The notes under the pieces: generated by a model
What the model was told of the DNA's origin: nothing
The model's input: only the letters and a program-made list of their open reading frames with translations
Database searches by the model: none
Translations under genes and position numbers: made by a program
In this document: positions 8,194-28,215 of the stretch, piece after piece
Numbering within the stretch: the first letter of the stretch is position 1
Layout: each line of letters opens with the position of its first letter
Assembly: GCF_040932005.1 (NCBI RefSeq)
Contig: NZ_CP162417.1
Span: 1 to 44,315 of the forward strand
Reading direction: 5' to 3'
Source: Aestuariibius sp. HNIBRBA575
GTDB taxonomy: Bacteria; Pseudomonadota; Alphaproteobacteria; Rhodobacterales; Rhodobacteraceae
Length of the DNA stretch: 44,315 nucleotides

Positions 8194-8736
8194 GTGATCA
8201 AGAAACTGGACAGATTGTTATCGACAATCGAAATCTGGTCGATGGTGACTCTGACGCTTGTAGGGCTGGCATTCGCCTTTCTGCAGGTGGTTTTGCGATA
8301 TGTCTTTAACACCGGAATCCATTGGTTAGAGGCCGGACTTGTGACGGCTTTGATCTGGGCGATGTTGATCGGGTCCGTGCGTGCCGTCAGAGAAGGATAC
8401 CACCCGCGGGTGGATTTGGTGCCCAACCTCGTCGGCCCAAAGGCGCGCGCAACATTGAATGTTCTGGCATTGGCCAGCGCGTTTCTACTGTCCTGCGTGT
8501 TCCTCTGGGACAGTGTATTTTACGCCAAATTCATCAACATGATCAACGCGTTACACCCAGAGCTTGGGATCAAGCAAGTTTACCCGTTTCTGATCGTTCC
8601 GATCATCACTTTTCTTATGTTGATCCGCTACGGTTTGGTTGCGTGGACGTTGGTCACTGACCCTTCCAGCCACGCGCCGGATGCAACATTCCGGCGGTCT
8701 GTCGGCGACTTGTCTGAAAAAGGGACCCTGGATTAA
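8194..8736 (+). CDS. dctQ: TRAP transporter small membrane subunit (DctQ family)
   Basis: The protein has about 180 residues with four predicted membrane helices. FLQVVLRYVFNTGIHWLEAG and the Trp-containing second helix match the DctQ family. The small subunit couples the periplasmic binding protein to the large permease in Na+-dependent uptake of organic acids. The GTG at 8194 is preferred because AGGGAGGA lies eight bases upstream. The longer frame from TTG 8161 would read through that ribosome binding site. The stop overlaps the dctM start by one base (TAATG), indicating coupling. Confidence 0.92.
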   Translation: MIKKLDRLLSTIEIWSMVTLTLVGLAFAFLQVVLRYVFNTGIHWLEAGLVTALIWAMLIGSVRAVREGYHPRVDLVPNLVGPKARATLNVLALASAFLLSCVFLWDSVFYAKFINMINALHPELGIKQVYPFLIVPIITFLMLIRYGLVAWTLVTDPSSHAPDATFRRSVGDLSEKGTLD

Positions 8737-10055: not shown

Positions 10056-10098
10056 GCCGGAATAAACCCCTAAATCAGATTATAAACGGAGGAAGAAA

Positions 10099-11325: not shown

Positions 11326-12081
11326 CTAGTGATCCAGCATCGCCCAAAGCCGACGTTTGATGTCCAAGAACTCATCCGTCAGGCGCATTTCATCGGTTCT
11401 GGGACGCGCCAGAGCCACGTCTTCGATGTGATGCACACGGCCGGGACGCGAAGAAAGCACAACGATTTTATCAGACAAGAAGATCGCCTCTTCGATGTCA
11501 TGGGTCACAAAGATGACGGTCTTTTTGGTTTTGGTCCACGTTTCCAATAGATCGGATTGCATCCGCTCTTTGGTTTGTGCGTCCAGCGCGCCAAAGGGTT
11601 CGTCCATCAGCAAAACATCGGGATCATTGGCATAGACCCGGCCAATATCAACCCGTTTGCGCATGCCGCCGGACAACTCCCGCGGCCAGCGATCCTCAAA
11701 CCCTTTGAGACCCACCATGTCGGTCCATTTGGCTTCGATTTCGGCCTGTTGCGCCTTAGAGGCCCCACGCAGGCGCGGTCCATAAGAGATGTTTTTGGCG
11801 ACCGTCATCCAAGGAAAAACCGCGTCCTGTTGAAACACCATCCCCCGTCGGCGGTCGGTGCCTTGGATCACGTCGCCATCCAATGTCATCGCGCCATCGG
11901 ACGGATCAAACAGCCCCGCCATCATTTTGAGCAATGTGGATTTGCCGCAGCCCGATGTGCCGATGATTGAATTGAAACTGCCGGATTCAAACGTCAGATC
12001 AATATCCTCAAGCACCGTCAGCGCGTCATGGCCACCTTTGCCAAAAGTATGGGTCAGATTGTTGGTTTTGATTTCGGGCAT
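11326..12081 (-). CDS. SsuB/TauB-type ABC transporter ATPase
   Basis: This 251-residue nucleotide-binding subunit powers uptake at the inner membrane. Walker A is GTSGCGKST, the Q-loop is in VFQQDAVFPWMTV, the signature is LSGGM (a variant of LSGGQ), Walker B is VLLMDEPFGALD, and the switch His is in VTHDIEEA. Similarity pattern and gene order (binding protein, permease, ATPase) fit the nitrate/sulfonate/taurine (SsuB/TauB) group. Its ATG overlaps the permease stop by one base. The probable SorC regulon operator lies upstream of the first gene. The group carries small organosulfur compounds in many cases, but also pyrimidines and other ligands. Confidence 0.92.
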   Translation of the reverse strand: MPEIKTNNLTHTFGKGGHDALTVLEDIDLTFESGSFNSIIGTSGCGKSTLLKMMAGLFDPSDGAMTLDGDVIQGTDRRRGMVFQQDAVFPWMTVAKNISYGPRLRGASKAQQAEIEAKWTDMVGLKGFEDRWPRELSGGMRKRVDIGRVYANDPDVLLMDEPFGALDAQTKERMQSDLLETWTKTKKTVIFVTHDIEEAIFLSDKIVVLSSRPGRVHHIEDVALARPRTDEMRLTDEFLDIKRRLWAMLDH

Positions 12082-12857
12082 TATTCACGCGCCTCCGACC
12101 ATTGCATGAGATAGGCTTGAATGCGGCGGAAAATCCGATCCATGATAAAGGCGCAACTGCCAATGATGACGATGATCATCATCACCTGATCCGTCAGGAA
12201 ATAACGACGCCCCTCTTGAAGCAAAAATCCCAATCCATTCTGCGCGGCCAGCAATTCAGAGGCCACAAGCGTGGTCCAAGCTGCCCCCAATGCGATGCGA
12301 TAGCCCGTGATAATAAAAGGAGTCGCGGCCGGAATGGCCACGGTGCGGAAAATCTGGAAACGATTGGCACCCATGGTCGCGGCCGCGTCCACATAGACTT
12401 GGGGGACGTTTTTCATACCCGCGATGACATTCACAACGCAGACCATGAAACAGGCGATCGAAATGATCAACACACGGCTAAATTCGTCGATGCCGAACCA
12501 GATGATAATGATCGGGATATAGGCCAGTGGCGGGATTGGGCGCAGGGCTTCGATCAGGGGATCAACCAGATATTCAACGGTTTTATACCAGCCGACCAAA
12601 CAGCCAACAATCAACGCCCCCGTGGTTCCAAAAAAGAAGCCAAGGAAAATGCGGTACAGGCTTGCCCCCAGCGCTTGGGTTAAGTTGCCGGATTCAAGAT
12701 TGACGAAAAAGGACTTTACGATGTCCGAAATCGGCGGCAGCAATGCCGGGTTATTGTCTGGCTGATTGGTCAACCAGACATAAGCCGCAAACACCAATGC
12801 CACCGACAAGACGCCCAATTGCAGGCGTCTTGAGGTTAATAGGTCTAAGATTTTCAT
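12081..12857 (-). CDS. SsuC/TauC-type ABC transporter permease
   Basis: The 258-residue permease has about six membrane helices and the BPD_transp_1 domain. The EAA-loop equivalent, which contacts the ATPase, includes AAATMGANRFQIFRTVAIPA. It is the middle gene of the ABC operon, one base after the binding-protein stop and with a one-base overlap into the ATPase. It belongs to the same group as SsuC and TauC. Nothing unusual is seen in length or motifs. Confidence 0.92.
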   Translation of the reverse strand: MKILDLLTSRRLQLGVLSVALVFAAYVWLTNQPDNNPALLPPISDIVKSFFVNLESGNLTQALGASLYRIFLGFFFGTTGALIVGCLVGWYKTVEYLVDPLIEALRPIPPLAYIPIIIIWFGIDEFSRVLIISIACFMVCVVNVIAGMKNVPQVYVDAAATMGANRFQIFRTVAIPAATPFIITGYRIALGAAWTTLVASELLAAQNGLGFLLQEGRRYFLTDQVMMIIVIIGSCAFIMDRIFRRIQAYLMQWSEARE

Positions 12858-12858
12858 T

Positions 12859-13893
12859 TCAGAGTTTGCTTACGATCTGATCGCTAACCAATGCATCCAG
12901 ATCAGGCATGTTGGGAATGCGATCATTGTCGACAAGGAACCGCGATTGCACGTCCAGTGCATTGTTCAGCACACCTTGGGCGTATACATCTTTGATTTCT
13001 TCAGTGTTGAAGTAGAAATAGCCATTCAACAGCGGTTCGACCTCTGGTGCGGTGACGCCTGCGCGGCCGACGCTTTCTTGCCATGCGATCATACGATCAA
13101 CAACCGCGGCATTGTCTTCGCGCAGCATTCCGACCGCTTCGTTGTGGAACGCAGCGACCGCTTGGGTCAGGGCCTCTTCTTTGGCGTCGATGGTTTGCTG
13201 GGTTGTCATAAAGACGTCCATGATCGACGGGCGGGCGTCGATGGGCATCGCGGATCCATCCGCCAACATGCTGGCACCGGGCAATTTGTCAAAGATCAAC
13301 TTTCGGGACGTGGCCAATGGTACGGTGGCATCCACAGCGCCGGCAATCAACGCGGCTTGGGCGTCAATTGGTTCCATGTTGATCCTGTTCAGCGGCATAT
13401 CCGCAAGGCCCGCCTGTTCCAGAGCAACCCCAAGGAAGAAGTCAAAGTTTGAACCAGAAGTGACGGCAATGGTTTTGCCTTCTAGGTCAGCCAGCGATTC
13501 AAGACCGGGTTTGCCAACAATCGTAAACAGGCCAGAGGCGTCGCCACAGATCGAAATTTCGCGGAAATCGGCAACCCGGCGGGCCATCGCAGCCAAAGGT
13601 GGCACGGATCCAACGGTGATGGCGTCAACAGACCCCCCTACCATTGCTTCGATCGCGGGTGGGCCGGATGGGAATACGCTGAATTCCATATCAACGCCGG
13701 GCGCAAAGCCCTGATCCTGAATCAGCCAATACAGCCCAAAGGAATAGGCGGGAATGATCCCGATCTTCAGCTTTTCGGTCGACGCATGGGCTTTGCCTAC
13801 AAAAAAGGTTGGGGCAGCCAAGGCAGCGCCAGCTGCGACACCACCTCTGAGCACGGTGCGGCGTGAAATGTAGCTTACTTTAGAATTCGACAT
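12859..13893 (-). CDS. SsuA/TauA-type ABC substrate-binding protein with Tat-like signal
   Basis: The 344-residue protein is of the NMT1/SsuA type. The start at 13893 follows a GGGAGGA site; an upstream in-frame ATG at 13950 adds only a non-conserved stretch. The N-terminus SRRTVLRGGVAAGAALAAP resembles a twin-arginine signal (S-R-R-x-x-L), with cleavage likely after AHA. The body has the SsuA pattern KIGIIPAYSFGLYWLIQDQG and later VTSGSNFDFFLG. It binds the imported ligand in the periplasm. The operator-like 31-mer at 13966 is 73 bases upstream, tying this transporter to the sulfatase and transketolase genes. An organosulfate or sulfonate ligand is plausible but unproven. Confidence 0.9.
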   Translation of the reverse strand: MSNSKVSYISRRTVLRGGVAAGAALAAPTFFVGKAHASTEKLKIGIIPAYSFGLYWLIQDQGFAPGVDMEFSVFPSGPPAIEAMVGGSVDAITVGSVPPLAAMARRVADFREISICGDASGLFTIVGKPGLESLADLEGKTIAVTSGSNFDFFLGVALEQAGLADMPLNRINMEPIDAQAALIAGAVDATVPLATSRKLIFDKLPGASMLADGSAMPIDARPSIMDVFMTTQQTIDAKEEALTQAVAAFHNEAVGMLREDNAAVVDRMIAWQESVGRAGVTAPEVEPLLNGYFYFNTEEIKDVYAQGVLNNALDVQSRFLVDNDRIPNMPDLDALVSDQIVSKL

Positions 13894-13965
13894 TCTATCC
13901 TCCCTTTGGATTTTACTGTCCAATGATCTCTGACCTCCCAGAGTTGCCACGAGCTTAGTTCCTGA

Positions 13966-13996
13966 CTTTTACATTTGTCAAATGTTTTGTCATAAG
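13966..13996. promoter_or_regulatory. Shared regulon operator, copy 1 (ABC transporter promoter)
   Basis: The 31-bp element begins CTTTTACATTTG and has TGTC at positions 23-26. It contains the perfect palindrome ACATTTG-T-CAAATGT (13971-13985). On the minus strand a TTGACA -35-like hexamer lies within the element, so a bound repressor would block the promoter. Nineteen of 31 positions are identical in all three copies (this one, 20635 and 25434). SorC (14084-15046) is the likely binder, by position only. Confidence 0.75.
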
Positions 13997-14083
13997 AAAG
14001 ATGAAGGTATGCAATACAGGTCCCAACAGACGGTCTGATTTTCCCGTCTATCCATCCGTTTTCATGTCATGAAAGGCGCGTGT

Positions 14084-15046
14084 TCAGCGGCTCAGCAAAA
14101 ATTCCGCGAGGCATTCGTCAACACATAAATGGGTGACGAGCCCGCCAGAAATGGCGGCTTCGACCGCTTCTACACGGTCATTCCCGGCTGCAACCAACAG
14201 TTTTCGCTCGGCTTTTTTCAGCTGCTCAATTTCAATCGCAATCAGCCGATCCTCTGGGGGTAACCCCAGGGCCTGTCCGTCACCCGAAATGTAGCGCCCA
14301 CATAAAACGCCCATCGCCCCTGCAGTGACGGCTTTGTCCAGCTCTTGGGCCTCGGCGATACCGGCGGCGACCAGATGAGTGTCAACTTTGGTATTGCCGA
14401 CAGAAAAAATCGCGACATCCAGATGTTGCAGCCGTTCCAGTTGCGCAGCAATGGTGGGTTCGTTGCGCAATGCGTCGGCCAATTCTGCCGAAGACAGAAC
14501 CGCAGGCGCATGCAATGTGTAGCAATCCCCGTTCAAAGATTTCGCAATCCTGATCGAACAATCTTCGGATGTGGGCACGCGGTCAGACACCATTGATCCG
14601 ATCATCTGACAAACGGTGACGTCCTGAAACCCGCTTTGGTTCATGGCCAGAGAAACCGCTTTGATGGTTTCCCCCCATGCCACGCCGACAACGTCGCCGG
14701 ATTTGACGATATCACTGACCGCCATTGCCCCAACCCGCGCGACCTGTGGTAGGGTTGCGGCGCGGGATTTGCCGGATTGCGCTTGGGCGACATAGGCGTC
14801 TTGTAGGCCAAATTTTTCGCAAAGCTGGCGCGACAGGTTTGACCCAGACAGAACATCCCCGCCGACGCGAATTTCTACGATCCCCCGTTCGCGACAATCG
14901 CGCAGCATATTCACCACTGTCGGTCTGGACACGCCGATGCGCTTTGCGATTTCGCTCTGTGTCAGGCCTTCGCCGTAATACAGCAAAGCAACATTCGCCA
15001 GTTGCGCATCTTTGTCTCTTTGACGGGTTTGATCGGATCGAGCCAT
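14084..15046 (-). CDS. SorC-family sugar-responsive transcriptional regulator
   Basis: The 320-residue protein has an N-terminal helix-turn-helix (GLTQSEIAKRIGVSRPTVVNML, about 29-50) and a C-terminal sugar-phosphate-binding domain of the SorC/DeoR type (GVAWGETI near residue 120, SVGN near 215, GDGQALGLPPEDR near 255). SorC regulators respond to phosphorylated sugars or polyols, consistent with the kinase in the same operon. It is the last gene of the molybdoenzyme-kinase-dehydrogenase-aldolase unit, starting one base after the aldolase stop. It probably binds the three 31-bp operators at 13966, 20635 and 25434. Confidence 0.92.
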   Translation of the reverse strand: MARSDQTRQRDKDAQLANVALLYYGEGLTQSEIAKRIGVSRPTVVNMLRDCRERGIVEIRVGGDVLSGSNLSRQLCEKFGLQDAYVAQAQSGKSRAATLPQVARVGAMAVSDIVKSGDVVGVAWGETIKAVSLAMNQSGFQDVTVCQMIGSMVSDRVPTSEDCSIRIAKSLNGDCYTLHAPAVLSSAELADALRNEPTIAAQLERLQHLDVAIFSVGNTKVDTHLVAAGIAEAQELDKAVTAGAMGVLCGRYISGDGQALGLPPEDRLIAIEIEQLKKAERKLLVAAGNDRVEAVEAAISGGLVTHLCVDECLAEFLLSR

Positions 15047-15047
15047 C

Positions 15048-15713
15048 CTATGCGTTTACTTTTTTCTGACCCTCTTGGCCATAGTTCTTGCGGAACCATT
15101 GGAAACATCGGTCTATTTCTTCCTGTGGCAATTCGTCCACCGGACCGCGACACATGGCCAGATGCGTCGTCATTGCGGCTTCTTCTAGATACATGGCGAT
15201 CGATGTGGCCTGAGTTGCTGATGTGCCCATCGTAAACACGCCATGCGCCTGAACCAGCGCCGCAAAGCCCCCATCCGCGGCGTCAACCACAGCCTGGCCT
15301 GTGTCAACTTCGCCCGGGGTGGCATAGCGGGAACAGGGCACATCGCGCCCCAACATATGGGTGATCGGTGTCAACACCGCTGGAATGCGTTCGCCGCGCG
15401 CAGCAAATGACGTGGCATAAGGGGAATGGGTGTGCGTGATGCCAAAAACGTCGGGGCGGTTTTTATAGATATAAAGATGCACGCCGGTATCCACGGACGG
15501 CTTCTTTTCGCCTTCGATCACGTTACCATCGATGTCGACAACAACCATGGTTTCGGGCGTCAGTTTGCTGAATTTCACGCCTGATGGCTTGATTACAATC
15601 AGGCCCGTTTCTGGATCACGACCTGATACATTGCCGCCCGACCCGACCACCAGCCCATTGGCTGGCAATTCATGGTTCTGGTCACAGACTTCTTGCTTTA
15701 ACGCCTCAAGCAT
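15048..15713 (-). CDS. AraD-like class II aldolase / L-ribulose-5-phosphate 4-epimerase family
   Basis: The 221-residue protein is of the zinc-dependent class II aldolase/epimerase family. Marks are SGGNVSGRD, VIKPSGVKFSKLTPE (phosphate and substrate loop), HTHSPYATSFAA (zinc His pair) and the later His in QAHGVF. The KPSGV and THSPYAT pattern is closest to L-ribulose-5-phosphate 4-epimerases, though fuculose-phosphate-type aldolases cannot be excluded. The ATG at 15713 is preferred over 15737 because GGAGG sits just upstream of it, inside the dehydrogenase gene. As an epimerase it would give D-xylulose 5-phosphate, which the split transketolase encoded divergently could use. Confidence 0.85.
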   Translation of the reverse strand: MLEALKQEVCDQNHELPANGLVVGSGGNVSGRDPETGLIVIKPSGVKFSKLTPETMVVVDIDGNVIEGEKKPSVDTGVHLYIYKNRPDVFGITHTHSPYATSFAARGERIPAVLTPITHMLGRDVPCSRYATPGEVDTGQAVVDAADGGFAALVQAHGVFTMGTSATQATSIAMYLEEAAMTTHLAMCRGPVDELPQEEIDRCFQWFRKNYGQEGQKKVNA

Positions 15714-16767
15714 CTTTTTGATCCTCCGGAATCCCATGGGGATATACGATAATTTTCAGAGATTTTTCGGCCTTGCGCAGCATTTCAAACGCCTCGGCAC
15801 TGTCTTTGATGTCAAAACGATGTGAAATCGCTTCGTCGGCCTTGATCCGCCCCGCTTCGAGCAGGCGAATATAGCTATAAGTATCTGTGTGATCAGAACT
15901 ATAGCGCGACGTGATCGTGATCTGATCAAAATAGGCCCGGCTGCCTTCGCGGACCCAATCGGTGCCCGGAGCCAAGGGCGCGCCCAGATGCAATGTGCCC
16001 CCGACCTCAACCAGTTTTTCCGCATCGGCCCAAGCCTGCGGGAACGGGGCGATCACGATCACCGTATCCGCCAAACGCCCGTTATTGGCGTCGCGTAGCG
16101 CCTGAACGGCATCTTGGGATTTTGGGTTGATCGTATGGGTCGCCCCAAAGAATTTCGCCTTTTCCAGACGCCAATCAGAAAAATCCAGCGCGATGACTTT
16201 GCCCGCACCAAAAAACGGCGCGAGATGGACAAACCCCTGCCCCATAAACCCTGCCCCCACGACGGCAACCGTATCGCCGGGTTGGATGTTGCACACTTTT
16301 AGCCCGGACATGACACAGGACCAGGGTTCAATCGTTACAGCCGCATCCGTTGAAATGTTATCCGGTAATTTATGGGCATCCATCCGCAAATGCTGGGCCG
16401 TGACGCGGTAATATTCGCAGACCCCGCCGGGGTCTAACTTCATTGAAGCATAAAACGGATCCCGTGTGAAATGTCCCCGACGCGACAGATGGCTATCCAC
16501 CCGACCCACATGATGGTTGATGAAAACCCGGTCACCGATCTGGTAATCCGTCACCTGCGCACCGACTTCGACCACTTCTCCGATGGGTTCATGGCCCAGC
16601 ACCTTGGGGTCGGACTTTTTGTACCACGCCATGGTTTCCCCACCACATAAGCCACATGCCAGCGTCTTGAGCAGCACTTCTTCGGGGCCAATTTCCGGCA
16701 CCGGACGCTCTTCGAGGCGGATATCATCAAGCGCGTGATAAACGGCGGCTTTCATCATGTTGGTCAT
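15706..16767 (-). CDS. Zinc-type MDR alcohol/polyol dehydrogenase lacking the structural zinc site
   Basis: The 353-residue medium-chain dehydrogenase has catalytic-zinc residues C38 (CGLCGGE), the GHE motif near residue 57 and a Glu in TIEPWSCVMSG. The Rossmann motif is VVGAGFMGQG. The usual four-cysteine structural zinc loop is replaced by a His/Arg-rich stretch (FINHHVGRVDSHLSRRG). It probably oxidises a sugar or polyol hydroxyl with NAD(P)+. The ATG overlaps the kinase stop by four bases (ATGA). A second ATG nine bases later is an alternative start. The substrate presumably belongs to the same route as the kinase and epimerase. Confidence 0.88.
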   Translation of the reverse strand: MTNMMKAAVYHALDDIRLEERPVPEIGPEEVLLKTLACGLCGGETMAWYKKSDPKVLGHEPIGEVVEVGAQVTDYQIGDRVFINHHVGRVDSHLSRRGHFTRDPFYASMKLDPGGVCEYYRVTAQHLRMDAHKLPDNISTDAAVTIEPWSCVMSGLKVCNIQPGDTVAVVGAGFMGQGFVHLAPFFGAGKVIALDFSDWRLEKAKFFGATHTINPKSQDAVQALRDANNGRLADTVIVIAPFPQAWADAEKLVEVGGTLHLGAPLAPGTDWVREGSRAYFDQITITSRYSSDHTDTYSYIRLLEAGRIKADEAISHRFDIKDSAEAFEMLRKAEKSLKIIVYPHGIPEDQKDA

Positions 16768-18287
16768 TGCATTTCCTTAGAGGGTTGAGTCCAAAGCGAT
16801 TGGGCCGCTGTTGAAAGAGTTCGATAAGTCGCAAAAGCCGCGTCATAGGCCGGACCATGTGCGGGGGTTGGATCATAGACGATGCTCTGTTCGGTGCGTT
16901 TGGCGATCTGGCTGGCGATGCCTTTGCCATTGGCCGCCGCCCCTAAACAGGCCGCGCCCCACAATCCGTGGTCGGACGCGCCGCTGACTTCTATGGGGAT
17001 TTGCATGACGTCCGCGATGATCTGACACCAAAGCGCATTTTTGGACCCGCCACCGGTCAGCCGAATGGTTGTTTTGGGCAGGTGGCCACATTCCGACATA
17101 TAACAATCACGCAGGCTAAAGGCCGTGCCTTCCATAACGGCGCGCCCCATATCTGCCTTGGTGCTGGTGGTGCGCAGACCAAAGAACACGCCGGTAGCGT
17201 CCGGTGCCACAAACGGGGCGCGTTCCCCGTTTAGATGCGGTAGAAACGTGACCCCATTTGCGCCCGCTGGCACGTCTTTGGCCAAGGCATTTAATTTGCC
17301 TGCGATTTCAGCGGGGGTTTCGCCGCCCAATGTTTGGGGATGCAGAGCGCAGAACCAGTCAAAGGCCGCAGCCCCCGTCGTCGGAGCAAGGATGCGCGTC
17401 AATGTCTGGCCGTTTGCGTGAAATGCCGTCGCGCCCACGGGGCGATCATCTGGGGTAATGCTGTCGGTCAAAATGTTAACCACGGCCGTTGTGCCGAGGA
17501 TCATCATTGTATCGCCGGGCTGATCCATGCCCATGCCAACGATCATGGCGGATAAATCCAACGTGCCGACAGAAACAGGCAGGCCCGCGGGCAGGCCACA
17601 TTCCAACGCGGCCTTGGCAGATATCAATCCCAGCTGCGTTTGCGCTGATTGAGGGGGCAACAGGGCTGATTTCAAGTCGCTGACCCGCAATGCCGCCAGC
17701 GCGCTGTCTGAATATCGGCCATCATGACTTTGACCATCGTGCAAATTCAAAAACGGGATAGAGGCATCTGAAAAATCCACCGCCATGTGACCGGTCAGAC
17801 AATAGCCAACCCAACCGGCGCAATGCATGATATGGGCCACATTCTGCGCGCGTTCTGGGGCGTTTTGTTTGAGCCAGCGATAGATTGGCCCAACGGTTCC
17901 GGGCCACAAAGACGTGTGACAGGCCTGCGCAATGACGGCCAGATCAGCCGCGCTGAGCTCCGCCAGATTGGCGGCCGCGCGCGTGTCATTCCACAAAATC
18001 GCAGGACCATTGGGGCGGCCATCGGCATCAAGGCTCCAGAAACCATCACCCTGCGCGGCCAATCCTACGCTTTCTATTCGGGCAACATCCACTGATTGCA
18101 CCGCCTGTTTCACCGCGCGGCACACGCCTTGCCACACTTGGTCCATATCCTGTTCGGACTGGCCGGGCTGGGGCGTTGCGACGTCACTTGCGCATTCGCC
18201 ATAGCTGACCTGAACACCGTCAGCGCCATAAAGCGCCGCCTTTATGGCCGTTGTTCCGACATCAATTCCAAGCCAAAGCGGCGTCAT
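16764..18287 (-). CDS. FGGY-family carbohydrate kinase (xylulokinase-like)
   Basis: The 507-residue two-domain kinase opens with the phosphate-1 loop GIDVGTTAIKAALY. A probable catalytic Asp is in SVGTLDLSA, and the FGGY C-terminal ATP-site segment is LTGGGSKNALWCQIIADVM, with family mark GERAPFVAPDATGVFFGL. It phosphorylates a ketose or polyol in the cytoplasm. AAGGAGA precedes the ATG, and the start overlaps the molybdoenzyme stop (ATGA). Xylulokinase-like enzymes share this pattern, but FGGY specificity is hard to predict; L-ribulose, L-xylulose, D-apulose or an alditol are equally open. Confidence 0.9.
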   Translation of the reverse strand: MTPLWLGIDVGTTAIKAALYGADGVQVSYGECASDVATPQPGQSEQDMDQVWQGVCRAVKQAVQSVDVARIESVGLAAQGDGFWSLDADGRPNGPAILWNDTRAAANLAELSAADLAVIAQACHTSLWPGTVGPIYRWLKQNAPERAQNVAHIMHCAGWVGYCLTGHMAVDFSDASIPFLNLHDGQSHDGRYSDSALAALRVSDLKSALLPPQSAQTQLGLISAKAALECGLPAGLPVSVGTLDLSAMIVGMGMDQPGDTMMILGTTAVVNILTDSITPDDRPVGATAFHANGQTLTRILAPTTGAAAFDWFCALHPQTLGGETPAEIAGKLNALAKDVPAGANGVTFLPHLNGERAPFVAPDATGVFFGLRTTSTKADMGRAVMEGTAFSLRDCYMSECGHLPKTTIRLTGGGSKNALWCQIIADVMQIPIEVSGASDHGLWGAACLGAAANGKGIASQIAKRTEQSIVYDPTPAHGPAYDAAFATYRTLSTAAQSLWTQPSKEMQ

Positions 18288-20623
18288 GTTGTGTCTCCTT
18301 GATGAGGGGGGCGCATGGGCGCAAATCGTGGCGGGTCAAAGACGCGGATATCCGGCAATGCACCCGTCCATTTTTCAACCGATACCAACGCGGTATGTGC
18401 GATGTTGCCCTGCGCCAGCTCTGACGTGCCTTTGTCGATTGTCAGCATGTTGGGATTTCCATGCACATCCAGGCGCCCTGCCCCGGTTGTTTGGATATCC
18501 AGCCATGCTCCGGTTGGCAGAACAACCACATCACGCCGCATTTGCGCATCCGTTTTCACCGCCGACAGGCAGGCCCCGCGCGTATTAAACAGCCGCACGA
18601 TGTCGCCGTCTTGCAGCCCCAGCGCCGCACATGTGTCCGGGTGCAGATGACAGGGTTCGCGGCCCTGAATTTTGCGCGCACGGCTTTCTGATCCGTTGTC
18701 CAACTGACTGTGTAGGCGCGTGTTTGGCTGATTGGAAATCAGATGCAATTGGCCGGGTTTTGCGGCGCCCAGCCATTCCTGCGGGGCAAACCATTTTGGA
18801 TGACCGGCACAATCAGGCAGGTTCATCTGGGCGATCTGTTGGCTAAAGAGTTCGATCCTACCGCTCGGAGTCGCAAGTGGGTTTTTGACAGGATCGGTGA
18901 TGAAGTCTTTGAATAGAATGCGCGACTGTTCCTGGTCAGGGATGACAAAATGGCCCGTCTGTTGAAATGTTTCATAGGACGGCAGCTCAAAGCCTTCGGA
19001 CTGGGCCACGGCCTGACATTGGGTCCACATCCAGTGTTTCCAACCGTTTTCGTCACGTCCTTCGGTGAATTGGTCCCGCAATCCCAACCGCTGGGATAAG
19101 GCGCTGAAAATGTCGTGGTCATGTCGCGCCTCGCCAAGGGGGGGCATCAATTGGCGCATGGCAATCAGGTTTGGATCCCGGCGGTTTAGAAACAGATCCT
19201 CACGTTCAAGCGGCGAAGTCGCGGGCAAAACAATATCCGCACGCCGGGCGGTTGCGGTCCAGCTGTGATCCTGCACGATCACCGTTTCAGGTTTCTGCCA
19301 CGCGGTTTCCAGCTGGTTCAAATCCTGATGATGATGGAACGGATTGCCACCGGCCCAATAGACCAGTTTGATGTCGGGATAATGCCGCGTTTCCCCCCGA
19401 TACCGATAAGTCGCGCCCGGGCTTTGCAACATATCCGCGATCCGAGAAACGGGAATGAAATCTTTGACCGGGTTGCGGCCCTGCGGCATGGCGGGCCAGC
19501 TGATAAATCGCTTGGGTCGGCCGGGTGGTGCCGTTGACCCATACCCAAATCCAAAACCCAGACCCGGCTGGCCGATCTGCCCTAATAGGCAGGCCAGCGC
19601 CAAGGCGCACCAGATCGGTTGTTCGCCGTGGTCTGATCGTTGCACCCCCCAAGCGACAGAAATCATCACCCGATGCGCGGCCAATTTGCGGGCCAGGGAC
19701 CGGATATCGCCCGGCGCGATGTCACAGATATCTGCCGCCCAATCTGGGGATTTGGCGATGCCGTCAGATTGGCCCGTGACATAGTTGATAAAAACGTCCG
19801 CGCCGGTTGTGTATCGATCCAGAAAGTCCTGATCCTGCAGGTCATTGCGGACCAATTCATAGGCCAGTGCTAGCATCAAAGCCACATCCGTGCCCGGTCG
19901 GATGGACAGCCAAGTTGTGCTATTTTGGCTCTGATAATCGGACCTAAGCGGCGATACATTGATCGTTTGCATGCCATTCTCTGCGGCTTGGCTGACCCAA
20001 TCGTCCACCTCGTGCGTCCACGTTCCCCCCGACGCAATCTGCGCGGTGCGGCCGGAAACCCCGCCAAAGGCCAAAAGCAACGTGCAATTATCCGCGATCA
20101 GGGGCCAACTGGTTGCGTTTTCTTCGGTCTCTTTGTTGGTCATGCCGGTGATATAGGGAAACAGAACCTCGGCGGCGGCATGTGAATAGGTGTCTTTTTG
20201 GCCGACATATCCGCCCGCGAGGTTCAAAAACCGTCGCAATTGCGAATGGCAATGATGAAACCGCCCCGCGCTGGCCCAGCCATAAGAACCGCCAAAAATC
20301 GCGGTGTTTCCATGATCCCGCGCAATGCGGGCAATTTCAGCGGCGGCCATATCCAGCGCTTCGTCCCAGGGCACAGCCACAAACGCATCGTCATTACGCG
20401 CCGCCCCTGCATCCCCGTTTAGCCAGCCCGCGCGCACAGCCGGTTGCAAAATGCGGGTGCGTTTGTCCTGCATCGCCGATTGCCAGCCGCGGCCAATAAC
20501 CGATGGTGTTGTGTCGCCTGGATTGGGCACCAGCTGTGCGCCATCCTTTGAATCGCGGATTTCATACCCGCCCCAATGCGCCACGGTTTTTAACGTTTTT
20601 GAGTGGCCGTCGTGATGCGTCAT
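18284..20623 (-). CDS. Cytoplasmic BisC/TorZ-type molybdopterin oxidoreductase
   Basis: The protein has about 779 residues of the DMSO-reductase family, closest in pattern to biotin-sulfoxide/TMAO reductases (BisC, TorA, TorZ). The active-site stretch SYGWASAGRFHHCHSQLRRF carries the Ser that ligates molybdenum in this clade. There is no N-terminal Cys motif for an Fe-S cluster and no Tat signal, so it is a single-subunit cytoplasmic bis-MGD enzyme. The C-terminal cofactor domain includes NQPNTRLHSQLDNG. The ATG at 20623 is chosen; a GTG at 20635 is possible but lies in the operator. Family members reduce S- or N-oxides. Heading a sugar-kinase operon is unusual, and its substrate here is unknown. 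Confidence 0.9.
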   Translation of the reverse strand: MTHHDGHSKTLKTVAHWGGYEIRDSKDGAQLVPNPGDTTPSVIGRGWQSAMQDKRTRILQPAVRAGWLNGDAGAARNDDAFVAVPWDEALDMAAAEIARIARDHGNTAIFGGSYGWASAGRFHHCHSQLRRFLNLAGGYVGQKDTYSHAAAEVLFPYITGMTNKETEENATSWPLIADNCTLLLAFGGVSGRTAQIASGGTWTHEVDDWVSQAAENGMQTINVSPLRSDYQSQNSTTWLSIRPGTDVALMLALAYELVRNDLQDQDFLDRYTTGADVFINYVTGQSDGIAKSPDWAADICDIAPGDIRSLARKLAAHRVMISVAWGVQRSDHGEQPIWCALALACLLGQIGQPGLGFGFGYGSTAPPGRPKRFISWPAMPQGRNPVKDFIPVSRIADMLQSPGATYRYRGETRHYPDIKLVYWAGGNPFHHHQDLNQLETAWQKPETVIVQDHSWTATARRADIVLPATSPLEREDLFLNRRDPNLIAMRQLMPPLGEARHDHDIFSALSQRLGLRDQFTEGRDENGWKHWMWTQCQAVAQSEGFELPSYETFQQTGHFVIPDQEQSRILFKDFITDPVKNPLATPSGRIELFSQQIAQMNLPDCAGHPKWFAPQEWLGAAKPGQLHLISNQPNTRLHSQLDNGSESRARKIQGREPCHLHPDTCAALGLQDGDIVRLFNTRGACLSAVKTDAQMRRDVVVLPTGAWLDIQTTGAGRLDVHGNPNMLTIDKGTSELAQGNIAHTALVSVEKWTGALPDIRVFDPPRFAPMRPPHQGDTT

Positions 20624-20634
20624 AAGATAATTCA

Positions 20635-20665
20635 CTTTTACATTTGTAAACTAATATGTCATATG
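20635..20665. promoter_or_regulatory. Shared regulon operator, copy 2 (divergent molybdoenzyme/transketolase promoter)
   Basis: Second copy of the 31-bp element: CTTTTACATTTG, ten positions, then TGTC. It includes TTTACA-TT-TGTAAA. It sits between the divergent genes, 12 bases from the molybdoenzyme ATG and 54 bases from the transketolase ATG, so one bound regulator could control both directions. Confidence 0.75.
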
Positions 20666-20718
20666 TTACGCAATTGGACAATATCGAATTCCTCATTTTT
20701 TGAATAGGAGGTCGCGCA

Positions 20719-21645
20719 ATGCGCAACGAAAAGACCACTGAAGAGGTCGCACTGGGCATCCGTCGCCGTGTTTTTGAACATTCCATGCGAAACAATGGGG
20801 GCTATCTGTCTCAGGCGTGTTCAGCGGGCGAACAGCTGGCTTGGCTTTATAACGAAGAGCTGAACCTGGGCGCGCCAACATTGCCGATGATCCCCAAAGA
20901 TTTCGAAGGCGTCCCCTCTGCGAGCAACCCAGATTACCACACAGGTGCAGGGTATAACGGCCCGGCCACCCCGGAATTTGATCGTCTGTTTATTGCCCCG
21001 GCGCATTACGCATTGGTCGCCTATGCAACATTGATCGAAGTGGGTCGAATGGCCCCCGAAGGGCTGGATATGTTTAACAAAGACGGCTCTAGCGTGGAAA
21101 TGATCGGCGCAGAACACAGTCCCGGCATGGAGGTGCATAACGGCACATTGGGCATCGGCCTATCCACCGGCGCGGGGCTGGCTTATGGGCGCAAACTGCG
21201 GGGCGATGCGGGCCGTACATGGGTCTTTATGTCAGATGGCGAAGTACAAGAAGGCCAAACCTGGGAAGCCGTGCAATCGGCCGCCCATCATGGCATCGAC
21301 AACCTGTTTGCCATCATGGATGTGAATGATCAGCAATGTGACGGCGCGATGGACAGCGTGATGGAAGTCGGTGATATCAAAACCAAATTCCAGAACTTTG
21401 GCGCGGCCTGTATCGAAATTGACGGGCATGATTTGACCGCAATGCGCGACGCCGCCCGTGAAAAACACGACGGCAAACCGCTGATTATTCTGGCCCGCAC
21501 CAATCCCTATAACGCGATGCCAATCCTACAAGAGCGATTCCCCCGTCTGCATTATGTCCGGTTCAAATCCGAAGACGAACGCGCCCGCATGAATGTATCG
21601 ATTGCCAAAGATCTTGGTGTCGATCCCATTGATTACGCACATTAA
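20719..21645 (+). CDS. Transketolase, N-terminal (TPP-binding) subunit of split enzyme
   Basis: The 308-residue protein corresponds to the first third of a transketolase. The thiamine diphosphate motif is SDGEVQEGQ (172-180) with N203-D204 closing the metal site. GTLGIGLSTGAGLA (142-155) and H96 match catalytic-region elements. AGGAGG lies six bases before the ATG. It pairs with the C-terminal subunit 12 bases downstream. Split transketolases occur in D-apiose (AptAB) and sulfoglycolytic (SqwGH) clusters as well as general ones. It would transfer a two-carbon unit between a ketose phosphate and an aldose acceptor. Confidence 0.92.
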   Translation: MRNEKTTEEVALGIRRRVFEHSMRNNGGYLSQACSAGEQLAWLYNEELNLGAPTLPMIPKDFEGVPSASNPDYHTGAGYNGPATPEFDRLFIAPAHYALVAYATLIEVGRMAPEGLDMFNKDGSSVEMIGAEHSPGMEVHNGTLGIGLSTGAGLAYGRKLRGDAGRTWVFMSDGEVQEGQTWEAVQSAAHHGIDNLFAIMDVNDQQCDGAMDSVMEVGDIKTKFQNFGAACIEIDGHDLTAMRDAAREKHDGKPLIILARTNPYNAMPILQERFPRLHYVRFKSEDERARMNVSIAKDLGVDPIDYAH

Positions 21646-21657
21646 GGAGCCTGAGAC

Positions 21658-22662
21658 ATGGTAGAAATGGTATCCCGCCCCTACGCCTCGGCCTTTGAAA
21701 AATTCGCCGCCGGAAACAAAGACATCCTGTGCCTCAGCGCTGATTTGACGTCGTCCTGTGAAATTGACGGTTTTCGCGATCGCCACCCGGATCAGTTCCT
21801 GTCGATGGGTATGGCCGAACAAAACATGCTGAGCTTTGCCGGGGGGCTGGGTCTGGCTGGGTTTCGCCCGTTTATCCATACCTTTGGGGTGTTTATGTAT
21901 CGCCGCCCTTATGATCAGCTGATGGCGTCTATTGCCTATCCCCGGCGCAAGGTCCGGCTGATGGGGTTTTTGCCCGGGGTCACCACACCCGGCGGCATGA
22001 CGCACCAATCAATAGAAGACATTTCCGTCATGCGGTCGATCCCGAATATGACCATCCTTGAAACCGGCGATGCCACCGAAGTTGAGAGCATCTGCGAAGC
22101 CGCAGACAGTATCGATGGCCCCGTTTGGTGCCGGGTTCTGCGCGGATCCGTGCCGCGATTGTTTGACACCCCAATCAAGGTCGGCGAAATGCGCGAATTG
22201 TCCTCAGGCAATGACATCCTTGTGGTCACATCCGGCATCTGCACAGAAGAGGCAATGCGCGCGCGTTCTGCGTTGCAAAAGGCAGGCCTGTCGATCCGTC
22301 ACCTGCATTTGCACACGATCAAACCCTTTGATTCCAAGGCTTTGCTGGATCACATTTCATCTGTGAAACACGGTGTGGTTACGCTTGAAAATCACGTCAC
22401 CGAAGGCGGCATCGGATCATTGGTTGCCGAAACGATGGCCGATGCGGGTGTTGGCAAACGTCTTGTGCGGTTGGGTCTGAACGACACCTACGCCCATGGC
22501 GGATCGCGGCCCTATCTGATGCGGTATTACGGTCTGGATGCAACGGCCATGGTGCGCGGCATTGAATCCTTGATGCAGCAGGAATTCGGGATCTCAGAAA
22601 GCGATCTGGACACCGCCCGTGTCGAAGATGTGCATTCGTTGGTCAAAGCAGAAGCGTTATAA
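21658..22662 (+). CDS. Transketolase, C-terminal (pyrimidine-binding) subunit of split enzyme
   Basis: The 334-residue protein contains the Pyr domain and the C-terminal domain of transketolase. E54 in MGMAEQNML is the conserved Glu that activates the TPP aminopyrimidine. The segment THQSIEDISVMRSIPNMTI is typical of the family. AAGGAG precedes the ATG, and the gene is followed by a rho-independent terminator, so the two subunits form a bicistronic unit from the operator at 20635. Both active-site halves look intact, so a functional heteromer is expected. Confidence 0.92.
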   Translation: MVEMVSRPYASAFEKFAAGNKDILCLSADLTSSCEIDGFRDRHPDQFLSMGMAEQNMLSFAGGLGLAGFRPFIHTFGVFMYRRPYDQLMASIAYPRRKVRLMGFLPGVTTPGGMTHQSIEDISVMRSIPNMTILETGDATEVESICEAADSIDGPVWCRVLRGSVPRLFDTPIKVGEMRELSSGNDILVVTSGICTEEAMRARSALQKAGLSIRHLHLHTIKPFDSKALLDHISSVKHGVVTLENHVTEGGIGSLVAETMADAGVGKRLVRLGLNDTYAHGGSRPYLMRYYGLDATAMVRGIESLMQQEFGISESDLDTARVEDVHSLVKAEAL

Positions 22663-22678
22663 TCAGGTTCTTTCCCTG

Positions 22679-22712
22679 ATCGGTCGCGCTCTAGGGGGCG
22701 CGGCCGTTTTTT
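22679..22712 (+). terminator. Rho-independent terminator after split transketolase
   Basis: A GC-rich hairpin (CGG-T-CGCGC pairing with GCGCG-G-CCG) is followed by TTTTTT, about 20 bases after the stop codon. Confidence 0.88.
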
Positions 22713-22745
22713 GACAAACCACACACCGCATGCCACTTCGGGTAA

Positions 22746-23606
22746 ATGCAAAAAACATCTTTTGACATCATCTGGTTTGACGGCGGCAAAAGCCATATCG
22801 GCACCAACCAGCCTGAAATCAAGACCGACGGCGAAAGCCCGGCCCGTAAGGTAACGCTTGCGTCTTTTGGGCTGGGATCGACGACCGTGACCTATGCCGA
22901 TTTCGCCGAGTTTATCGCCGCGACCCAGTATGTCACGGATGCAGAAACCTATGGGTGGTCGTTTGTGTTTCGTGGGTTGATGGATACACCGACCGCGCAA
23001 CAGGCCCCGGGATTGCCATGGTGGAACACGATAAACGGCGCAACTTGGCGCAGGCCTCTGGGGCCGGACAGTGACGGGCAATGTTGGCCTGATCATCCGG
23101 TTGTGCATGTGTCTTGGAACGATGCGCGCGCCTATGCGGACTGGCTGGGTGGGCGATTGCCAACCGAAGCGGAATGGGAACATGCCGCCCGCAGCGGGGC
23201 AGAGCCAAAACGTTATCCTTGGGGGGATGATGAACCCAGCGATACCAATGCCGGGCATTGCAATATCTGGCAGGGTAAATTCCCCGATCACAACACCCAA
23301 GCGGACGGATTTTACGGCACGGCCCCCGCCCAGAGTTTCCCGCCAAACGCGGCGGGATTGTATAATCTGTCCGGCAATGTCTGGGAATGGTGTGACGATC
23401 CGTTTAAAATTCGCTCTGTCAGTCCCAAGGCCAAGAAACGCAATCAGCTGGCCAAAAAAGACAATGAACGCGTTCTAAAAGGCGGCTCTTTTTTATGTCA
23501 TGCCTCAACCTGTTGGCGGTATCGCATCGCGGCGCGCAGCGGACGACAAGCCGATAACGGCGCGTCAAATTGTGGGTTTCGGGTGGCCTTTGACAGAGAA
23601 ACCTAG
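22746..23606 (+). CDS. Formylglycine-generating enzyme (sulfatase-maturing, SUMF1/FGE family)
   Basis: The 286-residue FGE-sulfatase-domain protein oxidises the sulfatase active-site Cys to C-alpha-formylglycine, using oxygen and copper. C251 and C256 in KGGSFLCHASTCWRYR match the paired active-site cysteines of true FGEs, which merely FGE-like proteins lack. NLSGNVWEWCDD and GGRLPTEAEWEHAAR are further family marks. There is no signal peptide, so it works on cytoplasmic sulfatases. Both sulfatases of this window have the C-x-P-x-R target. It sits after the transketolase terminator and so needs its own promoter, which I could not identify. Confidence 0.93.
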   Translation: MQKTSFDIIWFDGGKSHIGTNQPEIKTDGESPARKVTLASFGLGSTTVTYADFAEFIAATQYVTDAETYGWSFVFRGLMDTPTAQQAPGLPWWNTINGATWRRPLGPDSDGQCWPDHPVVHVSWNDARAYADWLGGRLPTEAEWEHAARSGAEPKRYPWGDDEPSDTNAGHCNIWQGKFPDHNTQADGFYGTAPAQSFPPNAAGLYNLSGNVWEWCDDPFKIRSVSPKAKKRNQLAKKDNERVLKGGSFLCHASTCWRYRIAARSGRQADNGASNCGFRVAFDRET

Positions 23607-23844
23607 AACCTACCAGATCAGCATGGTTTTCAGCTTTGTGCAATCCGTCGCGAGGGGTGCACCCTGCTCAGAGACAAAAAAGAGCGTTCCGCCCGGGTAG
23701 GTTTCGATGGTCATGACGAACAGTTCCGTGATGGCTAGGTTTGCAGCCGCCGACCTAAGCGAGCGGTGCAAAACTAATAGACCATCATGGGCGTCTTGTC
23801 ACAGCCGATGCCTGTTCAGGGGCAAGTTCTGACGCCGTCAAAGG

Positions 23845-25380
23845 TTACGCAGCTTCGAGATCGGCGTCGGTCATGCCCAATCGGTCCAATTGTTCGGCTG
23901 GATATCCTTCGGCATCCATCAATTTGCGCGCCAGTCGCAACATGCGTCGTTTTTGATCAGGGTCGCTGTCCCACAGATTGTGTTCCTGCGCGGGATCTTG
24001 GGCGCGATTATAAAGGAAACATTCATAGGTGCGCGGATCGATGGAAATCGGGGTTTTCCACAAAGGCAAATCCACCGATGTATCAAACAGGCCCTGTTCG
24101 GCGGGGGGTTCTGGGGGTTTGCCAACCCGGCCATCCACGGGATTATCGACAATCAAAGGTCTGAAAATCGCCGTTGAATAGGTGAATAATGGTTTGTCTT
24201 TGATTGGCGCCCGAAACAGGGTGTAATCCCCGTCCGTCACACACAGACCCTGGCCAAACGTGCCGTAAATCAGCGCTTCGTGGGGGCTCTGAGCGTCCTG
24301 GGTGATCATCGGCAGAAACGATTTGGCGTGCCGGTTTGCATCCGGGATATCCCCCCCAGCTGCATCAATCAGGGTGGCAAACAGATCCACCGTTTGCGTC
24401 AACCCGGAAACCCGTTTGCCCTGCCCCGGATTCTGGGGATGCCAAACGATCATGGGGATATTGGCATGGCTGTCATAATGCGGGAATTGTTTGCCAAAGG
24501 CGCGACGTTCCCCCAAATCGTGGCCATGGTCGGTTGTGAACACAACCATCGTATCGTCCCATAGATCCAAGGCATCCATCTTGGCCATAAACTTGCCCAG
24601 CCACGTATCCATCATCGTGACTTTGCCCATGTACTGCGCCTTCAGGAATGCCAGCTCTTCTGGGGTGGTTTCGGACATGAACCGTTCCAGATCGTCATAG
24701 ACCTGATAGGGCGGCCAGATGTTGTAATCATCTTTGTCGCCGTCCGTGTACATGCTGGCATAAGGTTCGGGGACCTCAAACGGTTCATGCACATCAAAAC
24801 ATTCGACCTGCAGGAAAAACGGTCCTTTCTCGGCATTGTCGTCCAGCCAATCCATCGCCCCTTGGAACACTTTGGGTGCGAAATAATCCGCCTCACCGTC
24901 AAAGTCTTTTACGTTGGCGGCGTATTGACGAATATGTTCGGCCGCGCGGTATTTCATGACGTTCTTCACCCATGGCGGATCGTCTTGGTTCGGGTCGTGC
25001 ATTTTCCAGCTGTCGACTTCGTGACCGCGGACCAATTGCAGATTGCCAAAGCCCTGCATGTAGCCGTTCGCCTCTTCTTCCCAATAATGATAATGATCCG
25101 TTACCATTGCGGTGTTCATACCGGTTTTGGCGATTTCTTTGGGCATACGCGGATCAAAAACCTCCATGCCCCCCCATGGACGCCAAAGGAATTCTTTGCG
25201 CCCGGCCATGATTTCACGGCGCGCCGGCATGCAGGGTAAGCTGCCGACATAATGGTCATCAAAGACATGCCCGCGATCCGCCAAAGCCTGTACATTCGGG
25301 GCCTTGCAAATTGTATCCGGATTATATGTGCGCAGGCATTCCTTGTTTAGACTGTCCACAAGCACCATTATAATATTCAT
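23845..25380 (-). CDS. Type I (formylglycine) sulfatase, cytoplasmic
   Basis: The 511-residue alkaline-phosphatase-fold sulfatase has its nucleophile in LPCMPARREIMAG: C50-x-P52-x-R54, the FGE target. Metal-binding residues include D9 (VLVDSLN) and the later TTDHGHDLGERR. There is no signal peptide, so the sulfate ester must be imported first. The gene is preceded by the third copy of the shared operator (25434), 54 bases from the ATG, which places it in the probable SorC regulon with the kinase, epimerase, transketolase and SsuABC-type transporter. The protein is not a close match to BetC in the parts I can compare. Substrate unknown; a carbohydrate or polyol sulfate is inferred from context. 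Confidence 0.9.
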   Translation of the reverse strand: MNIIMVLVDSLNKECLRTYNPDTICKAPNVQALADRGHVFDDHYVGSLPCMPARREIMAGRKEFLWRPWGGMEVFDPRMPKEIAKTGMNTAMVTDHYHYWEEEANGYMQGFGNLQLVRGHEVDSWKMHDPNQDDPPWVKNVMKYRAAEHIRQYAANVKDFDGEADYFAPKVFQGAMDWLDDNAEKGPFFLQVECFDVHEPFEVPEPYASMYTDGDKDDYNIWPPYQVYDDLERFMSETTPEELAFLKAQYMGKVTMMDTWLGKFMAKMDALDLWDDTMVVFTTDHGHDLGERRAFGKQFPHYDSHANIPMIVWHPQNPGQGKRVSGLTQTVDLFATLIDAAGGDIPDANRHAKSFLPMITQDAQSPHEALIYGTFGQGLCVTDGDYTLFRAPIKDKPLFTYSTAIFRPLIVDNPVDGRVGKPPEPPAEQGLFDTSVDLPLWKTPISIDPRTYECFLYNRAQDPAQEHNLWDSDPDQKRRMLRLARKLMDAEGYPAEQLDRLGMTDADLEAA

Positions 25381-25433
25381 GCCATTCTCCAGATAAGTCG
25401 ATCGCGTTGGGGGCAGTATAACGCCGGCCCTAT

Positions 25434-25464
25434 CTTTTACAATTGATAATTATATTGTCTATTG
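25434..25464. promoter_or_regulatory. Shared regulon operator, copy 3 (sulfatase promoter)
   Basis: Third copy of the 31-bp element: CTTTTACAATTG, ten positions, then TGTC. On the minus strand it overlaps TTGTAA, which has a TATACT 16 bases downstream; this is a plausible sulfatase promoter blocked by a bound regulator. It lies between the LysR stop and the sulfatase start, so the sulfatase is not simply read through from lysR. Confidence 0.72.
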
Positions 25465-28183: not shown

Positions 28184-28190
28184 AATCTAT

Positions 28191-28215
28191 CCTGCGCCGA
28201 TCCGATCGGCGCAGG
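28191..28215 (+). terminator. Hairpin between BCCT 1 and betC (attenuator or terminator)
   Basis: A perfect 10-bp stem (CCTGCGCCGA with TCGGCGCAGG, loop TCCGA) is followed by only a short T stretch (TTTCT). It could be partial, setting carrier-to-BetC ratios, or protect the upstream mRNA end. Confidence 0.65.

Follow-up and report, generated by a model that had tools for sequence, protein, structure and literature searches.

The use of choline-O-sulfate relies on BetC together with a betaine/choline transporter, and apiose is catabolized through the kinase AplK and the split transketolase AptAB. In transketolase sulfoglycolysis (SqwGH) the substrate is a sulfonate and neither a kinase nor a sulfatase is known to take part, and the pentitol routes pass through L-ribulose 5-phosphate. 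Here we describe a gene island from Aestuariibius sp. HNIBRBA575 (contig NZ_CP162417.1, of which the 44,315 bp analyzed are called the window) that has features of each of these systems. It brings together an ATP-binding cassette (ABC) importer, a formylglycine-type sulfatase with its formylglycine-generating enzyme (FGE), and a set of sugar enzymes. From its sequence, we consider it likely that this plasmid-borne island serves the catabolism of a small sugar or polyol sulfate ester and carries a portable importer-sulfatase module.

In the proposed pathway, an ABC transporter of the Ssu/Tau class would import the intact ester, and the sulfatase, matured by the adjacent FGE, would strip the sulfate in the cytoplasm. 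The desulfated compound would be oxidized by a medium-chain dehydrogenase/reductase (MDR) and phosphorylated by an FGGY kinase, in either order, after which an AraD-like enzyme may reshape the ketose phosphate and a split transketolase may pass it into the pentose-phosphate pool. A BisC-family enzyme would probably act on the substrate as an S- or N-oxide reductase, and a SorC-type regulator probably governs all three promoters. The importer and sulfatase would be portable, being swapped for an RbsABC-type importer or standing beside a core of a short-chain dehydrogenase/reductase (SDR), a PfkB kinase, and a FucA-type aldolase. Gene content, the promoter repeat, motifs, co-occurrence, and the swap were read from sequence and comparison; from these we infer substrates, reactions, step order, and the role of the regulator.

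Exchange of the importer among relatives

Relatives were collected by a kinase scan of 84,980 species, which returned 38 loci, the best of them from the window's own species; the 11 loci with at least 49% identity were kept and annotated, and the 27 at 24–33% were dropped. The other relatives came from two plasmid loci and from loci in 394 genomes of the family. A relative was counted as core-bearing when it had the kinase, the dehydrogenase, and the AraD-like protein, which gave 19. Three loci of the window's own species (L004, L064, and L065) are left out wherever relatives are counted, L012 and L058 agree in length and content as one and the same contig (genome G109) and were counted once, and L063 (G209), with the dehydrogenase and AraD-like genes only, was counted in neither type. 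Twelve of the 19 bear the sulfatase (type I: L005–L012, L014, L053, L054, and L059), and seven are free of it (type II: L013, G151, G250, G303, G207, G029, and G227). As these labels are set by the presence of the sulfatase, only counts over all 19 relatives are independent of them.

The sulfatase lies within the locus in 11 of the 12 type I relatives (63–90% identity) and on another contig in L014 (67%). Orthologous SsuABC genes were found in 10 of the 12 type I and in none of the seven type II relatives, counted over the stretches read and not genome-wide. Of the two remaining type I loci, L012 is cut short by the edge of its contig, and L059 (G201) encodes another importer of the Tau type (30–37%). 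This importer (L059:12132-15636), with two permeases, stands in place of SsuABC and would be a third importer solution for the cluster. BisC was present in all 12 type I loci and fge in seven.

An RbsABC-type binding protein, in turn, was matched in seven of seven type II genomes (82–91% identity to the first of six aligned sequences) and, out of six genomes or records that bear the sulfatase (counting the window's), only in G109. Where the stretch suffices (L013, L066, and L067), the type II order is tktAB / MDR2-bisC / RbsABC / kin-adh-araD, followed by deoR. The same pieces are spread across two contigs (L060 and L079) in G207, and the other type II loci are broken by contig ends. G109 combines a type I core, in which tktA is reduced to a remnant, with the type II importer and an intact tktAB on a separate contig. 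In a tree of the dehydrogenase and AraD-like proteins, the type labels need four changes, at least two of which are forced by well-supported branches. The original prediction had counted clusters lacking the sulfatase and SsuABC genes against itself, and such clusters do exist (7 of 19); their RbsABC-type importer in exchange is read here as a module swap.

Two family genomes (G014 and G328) have the sulfatase without an AraD-like match. In G328 (L075), a GntR regulator, SsuABC (76–83%), and the sulfatase (64%) are found with a FucA-type aldolase, a PfkB kinase, an SDR, and an oxygenase resembling flavin monooxygenases (FMO). In Sulfitobacter dubius (L089), SsuABC gives way to an RbsABC importer (binding protein 45%), next to a GntR regulator, aldolase, PfkB kinase, SDR, and FMO related to those of L075 (39, 55, 57, 62, and 49% identity, respectively); another SDR and an aldehyde dehydrogenase are also present. 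These two second-core loci, with SDR, PfkB kinase, and FucA-type aldolase, are called type III. Judged by gene content, the putative sulfate module and the apparent free-form sugar importer alternate around two unrelated cores. We regard this alternation as the strongest evidence that the product of the sulfatase would be what the sugar importer takes up in free form. The best reading appears to be that importer and cytoplasmic sulfatase form a portable module that supplies different catabolic cores with a desulfated sugar or polyol; to our knowledge, an importer-sulfatase exchange of this kind was not known before.

Among the 394 family genomes, the AraD-like protein (E 1e-60) was found in 11, the sulfatase (E 1e-100) in six, and both in four (hypergeometric p 5e-6). 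By genus, three are shared of 10 and five (p 1e-4). With the window's own species removed, being the one through which the cluster was found, two of four sulfatase genomes are among nine core genomes (p 0.003). The original prediction had placed desulfation ahead of carbon use, which is the simplest reading. The trait is patchy, as 11 of 394 family genomes have it. Identity is 71–93% for the AraD-like protein in 10 relatives and 72–90% for the SsuA/NMT1-family binding protein in 12, two of the latter without the sugar core. At E 1e-40 the AraD-like protein has 1,562 relatives among 2,255 candidates, and those of the best 120 that carry an organism name are mostly alphaproteobacteria, many from marine genera. 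Beyond the window's own genome, no match was found for the AraD-like protein in a 385-genome sample of the class at E 1e-50, nor for the sulfatase in a 372-genome sample at 1e-120. Relatives of the sulfatase in Rhizobium and haloarchaea (38–49%) have different neighborhoods, two Rhizobium loci lying beside sugar ABC genes (5 of 17 records viewed); considered as a clue to the substrate, they pointed to none.

Gene content, promoter repeat, and enzyme residues

All twelve cluster genes (11326–25380) were confirmed by Pfam and NCBIfam scans at the positions originally predicted for them (Table 1). Because most NCBIfam scores are under the cut-off, exact functions were withheld from the cluster proteins. 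The apparent transcription units are sbp-abcB-abcA (−), bisC-kin-adh-araD-deoR (−), tktA-tktB-fge (+), and sulf (−). The start listed for the araD-like gene lies upstream of the one suggested by its orthologs (about 15713), most of those listed having 221 residues. No SsuD-type flavin monooxygenase is present among the 12 genes, which sets the cluster apart from aliphatic-sulfonate (Ssu) systems. For the two binding proteins, the predicted structures were of too low a quality to be used, with a mean predicted local distance difference test score (pLDDT) of 64 and 39.

Table 1. Features of the island and of the adjoining locus, with the matches on which their class assignments rest (Tat, twin-arginine translocation; ORF, open reading frame)
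Feature	Position	Strand	Basis
ABC transporter ATPase, Tau/Ssu class	11326..12081	−	PF00005; best NCBIfam taurine ATPase, 226 bits, under cut-off
ABC transporter permease, TauC/SsuC class	12081..12857	−	PF00528; TauC 177 bits, under cut-off
Periplasmic binding protein, SsuA/NMT1 family, Tat-type leader	12859..13950	−	TIGR01728 96 bits (cut-off 164); PF09084
Operator copy 1, upstream of importer operon (sbp)	13965..13994	+	Repeat match
SorC/DeoR-type sugar-binding regulator	14084..15046	−	PF04198 191 bits
AraD-like class II aldolase/epimerase	15048..15713 (ORF listed to 15737)	−	PF00596
Zinc MDR dehydrogenase, sorbitol/threonine dehydrogenase class	15706..16767	−	PF08240, PF00107; best PDB match sorbitol dehydrogenase, E 2e-32
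FGGY kinase, XylB-like	16764..18287	−	TIGR01312 280 bits (cut-off 380); PF00370, PF02782
BisC-family S/N-oxide reductase, no leader seen	18284..20635	−	TIGR00509 873 bits (cut-off 1018)
Operator copy 2, bisC/tktA divergent promoter	20634..20663	+	Repeat match
Split transketolase, thiamin-diphosphate subunit TktA	20719..21645	+	PF00456 63 bits
Split transketolase, pyrimidine/C-terminal subunit TktB	21658..22662	+	PF02779, PF02780; closest solved relative 6yaj split transketolase, E 1e-52
Formylglycine-generating enzyme (FGE)	22746..23606	+	PF03781 245 bits; PDB FGE, E 9e-83
Formylglycine-type (type I) sulfatase	23845..25380	−	CMPAR at residue 50; PF00884 117 bits
Operator copy 3, upstream of sulfatase	25433..25462	+	Repeat match
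Choline-sulfate locus, adjoining: BetC, two BCCT transporters, LysR genes	26531-32574		BetC TIGR03417 876 bits

The operator that had been predicted at the importer, bisC/tktA, and sulfatase promoters was recovered as the top repeat family of the region. The pattern CTTTTACAWTTGW, which was derived from the three cluster sites themselves, has three matches with up to one mismatch in 44,315 bp (13966, 20635, and 25434) against 0.13 expected, and none of 100 shuffles had three. The site at the bisC/tktA promoter (11-base core, up to one mismatch) recurs in 10 of the 12 type I relatives, against 0.05 expected from base shuffles, and was not found in L012 and L059. Among type II loci, L066 and L067 have repeat-like sites at the tktA/MDR2 promoter, and L066 has a further one ahead of its importer; L013, L055, and L060 yielded none. 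Taken with the loci of the relatives, the conserved promoter site supports the proposal that importer, sulfatase, FGE, and sugar enzymes are regulated together as a unit. The island is real and conserved, and it is probably co-regulated.

The CxPxR signature of the sulfatase is CMPAR in the window and in all 13 orthologs read, and no N-terminal signal was seen by eye. The protein falls outside the BetC class, as it scores 110 bits against the choline-sulfatase model TIGR03417 (cut-off 433) and has no PF12411. In the FGE, the Cys pair of GGSFLCHASTC, which we take to be the catalytic pair, aligns with the Cys pair of the FGE in the PDB. The segments GGSYGW and YSHAAA are kept in BisC, and SYGW and the Ser ligand are present in 15 of 15 type I and II sequences; we presume that SYGW supplies the active-site Tyr and Trp and that the Ser is the Mo ligand. 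The cluster BisC is 39% identical to E. coli BisC, and a 100/100 branch sets E. coli BisC, TorZ, and TorA apart from the group formed by the cluster BisCs, two paralogs, and an enzyme from Klebsiella. The genome of L014 also encodes a BisC paralog (51–52%), which follows genes for a Tct transporter, a LysR protein, and another sulfatase (L080:541-11171); this stretch has, in addition, a 408-aa ORF without a Pfam match. The paralogs of L080 and L081 served as context.

Compared with E. coli AraD, the AraD-like protein keeps Asp76, the Zn His residues, and Tyr229, but Asp120 is replaced by His and His218 by Cys, so that it does not qualify as an AraD. The aldolase pair Glu73/Tyr113 is Asp/Thr in the window's protein; L075 and L089 have both residues in their type III aldolases. 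We assume that Asp76, the three Zn His, Asp120, and Tyr229 of AraD, and Glu73 and Tyr113 of the aldolases, are functional residues. Epimerase-like chemistry is favored for the putative enzyme; for the epimerization assigned to it originally, Asp76 and Tyr229 speak in favor and the His in place of Asp120 against. In TktAB, only His66 is kept of His26, His66, His100, and Asp469 (E. coli TktA numbering), presumably the marker residues of transketolases; His26 is Tyr, and His100 is not kept. Because the other split transketolases read share the same residue losses, TktAB activity is still possible, and for the same reason an odd substrate argued from these losses was dropped.

Candidate substrates and competing explanations

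Within the preferred reading of a sugar or polyol sulfate, the substrate could be the sulfate of an ordinary pentitol, hexitol, or ketose that bears no heteroatom group, with BisC as an accessory for redox balance or repair, which we find tenable although short of probable. The MDR, FGGY, and AraD-like enzymes fit a pentitol route, and the nearest PDB entries to the type II binding protein are 3l49 and 4wt7, of which 4wt7 is reported to have been solved with allitol (PMC10318746). Several motifs of this binding protein, however, differ from 4wt7 in an alignment in which pocket residues were not mapped. BisC was not found in three of the seven type II genomes, which counts against its being indispensable, but it is present in 12 of 12 sulfatase-bearing relatives, with the repeat at its promoter in 10. 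The original prediction had included BisC in the linked set and given it no role; that inclusion holds for the sulfatase-bearing relatives and only in part for the others.

A different kind of substrate is suggested by the relatives of the type II importer. The nearest relative of its binding protein in the plasmid collection is from Klebsiella pneumoniae (75–77% identity), where a BisC-family enzyme (46%), PfkB, an FGGY kinase (31% to the window's kinase), and a 2-hydroxyacid dehydrogenase are its neighbors, and this set sits between mtnC-mtnD and mtnB of methionine salvage. G1065, of the same phylum, has the same set of importer, PfkB, 2-hydroxyacid dehydrogenase, and FGGY kinase next to a second acireductone dioxygenase (ARD) paralog (PF03079, 49%), with Cys/Met and PALP-CBS enzymes within a few kb and with mtnC and a closer mtnD on another contig. 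One possible substrate is a sulfated 5-methylthio (or methylsulfinyl) pentose or pentitol, akin to methylthioribose, with a sulfoxide that BisC would reduce. In the type I and II cores, a 1-methylthio-ketose 5-phosphate would be made and then cleaved by TktAB; in the type III core, a 5-methylthio-ketose 1-phosphate would be cut to dihydroxyacetone phosphate (DHAP) by the FucA-type aldolase. The S/N-oxide reductase segments kept in BisC, the FMO-like oxygenase in both type III loci, and a BisC paralog (L081) adjoining a Cys/Met pyridoxal phosphate enzyme are consistent with this substrate. No mtn gene, however, is among the 12 cluster genes, and the sole BisC-like match in 28 kb of G1065 is at 24% and a few kb away. 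We know of no natural sulfated methylthio-pentitol, which also counts against it. In addition, PMC3228920 describes an insertion of about 15 genes in the Klebsiella mtn cluster and names a different ABC transporter as the probable methylthioribose importer, and genes of the kind it names are present in the Klebsiella record. Because the neighborhood is explained there by insertion, the methylthio link of the type II importer is weakened; because G1065 pairs the same set with an ARD paralog, the adjacency in Klebsiella is less likely to be a coincidence.

With BisC and the FMO taken into account, a methylthio-type pentose or pentitol is a serious candidate, with a probability no higher than that of a plain polyol sulfate. 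We regard the methylthio ester, with the reactions given above, as possible but doubtful. Rather more speculative is the broader proposal that marine alphaproteobacteria harvest sulfated methylthio or methylsulfinyl pentoses or pentitols by whole import, desulfation, sulfoxide reduction by BisC, and a split-thiamin-enzyme cut of the 1-methylthio-ketose phosphate. If true, carbon, sulfate, and reduced sulfur would be obtained from one molecule, implying an unknown sulfur metabolite of phytoplankton or algae. At L105:12579-18834 a second acireductone dioxygenase paralog is divergent to the sugar importer and PfkB, apart from the closer mtnD and mtnC, and this may possibly be a variant methionine salvage route. 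An arsenosugar sulfate was also considered, as the type III FMO is weakly ArsO-like, and was rejected for want of a glycoside-cleaving enzyme among the 12 cluster genes; there was nothing on it among the literature matches listed.

Two further explanations would remove the sulfate ester or the sulfatase from the pathway. The sulfatase-fold enzyme could hydrolyze a phosphonate, phosphodiester, or sulfamate that the importer carries, which we consider unlikely: phosphonate monoester hydrolases are among its PDB relatives, and PhnF/PhnR are among the best models of the type III regulators, under the cut-off, but these scores may just mirror the GntR-UTRA family, and the importer is of the sulfonate/taurine class. 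It is highly improbable that the sulfatase and FGE belong to the neighboring choline-sulfate locus (LysR, BCCT, and BetC) and merely adjoin the sugar cluster. The two are adjacent on the plasmid, and BetC, which has CAPGR, would need FGE too; the sulfatase ortholog, however, accompanies the core in 11 relatives, and the window's sulfatase has the repeat upstream and fails the choline-sulfatase model. Because no close orthologs of betC, BCCT (bcct1), and lysR1 were seen in the type I stretches read, the sulfatase would be part of the sugar cluster and not of the choline-sulfate genes.

Several observations weigh against a sulfate-ester island with a portable module. The pathway rests on sequence, with putative enzymes and substrate, and sulfatase-fold hydrolases also cleave phosphate and phosphonate esters. 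The SsuA/NMT1-family binding protein scores under both the SsuA and the TauA cut-offs, so that another anion is possible, and the AraD-like protein is missing Asp120. As to the swap, one exchange suffices for the tree of BisC alone (built without L006 and L009), and the exchange around the second core is known from one locus of each kind. In G014 (L076), SsuABC, the sulfatase, and a GntR regulator have no recognized sugar core beside them where scanned. BisC was found in four and TktB in five of the seven type II genomes, some of which are fragmented drafts, and without the window's own species the co-occurrence depends on two genomes. On balance, the central idea of the original prediction is well supported, and its interpretation as a whole is supported in part.

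Plasmid setting and comparison with described systems

The 44,315-bp window is a circular plasmid, as a contig of the same species (G257:C15, 44,392 bp) spans the junction of its end and start; the ends of that contig overlap each other by 77 bases. ParA-, RepB-, and RepC-type genes lie at 33758–37412. For the LysR gene next to the island (25471–26403), the top-scoring model is a choline-sulfate regulator, under the cut-off. Elsewhere on the plasmid, an AbrB-type protein, an aconitase family gene, a GntR-like gene, an amidohydrolase, a gluconolactonase-like gene, and a tripartite ATP-independent periplasmic (TRAP) importer at 1851–11100 may be a separate acid or lactone unit. A TctA transporter, a likely TctC-type gene, and genes of the isocitrate/isopropylmalate dehydrogenase and Asp/Glu racemase families at 38825–43739 are possibly a second organic-acid unit.

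In the open-access full-text literature, subscription papers being outside its scope, no paper on the proposed pathway was among the matches listed. If the pathway is correct, uptake of an intact sugar or polyol sulfate with intracellular desulfation would be a portable trait, which a single sulfatase-importer pair would make traceable across carbon pathways. Small organosulfates dissolved in seawater would become traceable by sequence, and the substrate could be tested through a pair of binding proteins that would take the sulfated and the free form, respectively.

Among the described systems, the DHAP shunt for methylthioadenosine and 5-deoxyadenosine uses MtnK, MtnA, and Ald2 (PMC10986504). 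The type III relatives are similar in having a kinase and a FucA-type aldolase that would give DHAP, but with PfkB and SDR in place of MtnK and MtnA; the window's AraD-like protein is without Glu73 and Tyr113, and the MtnK, MtnA, and Ald2 genes are absent from the 12 cluster genes. Sulfoglycolysis through SqwGH also joins a sulfur-linked sugar to a split transketolase; there, however, the sulfur is in a sulfonate, whereas a sulfate ester is proposed for the island, which adds a kinase and a sulfatase that are not known from that route. With the apiose route, the island has in common an FGGY kinase and a two-subunit transketolase. It differs, by gene content, in having no isomerase among the 12 genes and in its additional MDR dehydrogenase, AraD-like protein, BisC, sulfatase, and importer. 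The MDR dehydrogenase, FGGY kinase, and AraD-like enzyme recall the pentitol routes, from which the island departs by the AraD-like protein without Asp120 and by the addition of BisC, the sulfatase, and a dedicated transketolase. As in choline-O-sulfate utilization, an intact sulfate ester would be imported and desulfated inside the cell by a formylglycine sulfatase, but the island's sulfatase lies outside the choline-sulfatase model and domain, its importer is of the ABC and not the BCCT type, and the product would be handed to sugar enzymes.

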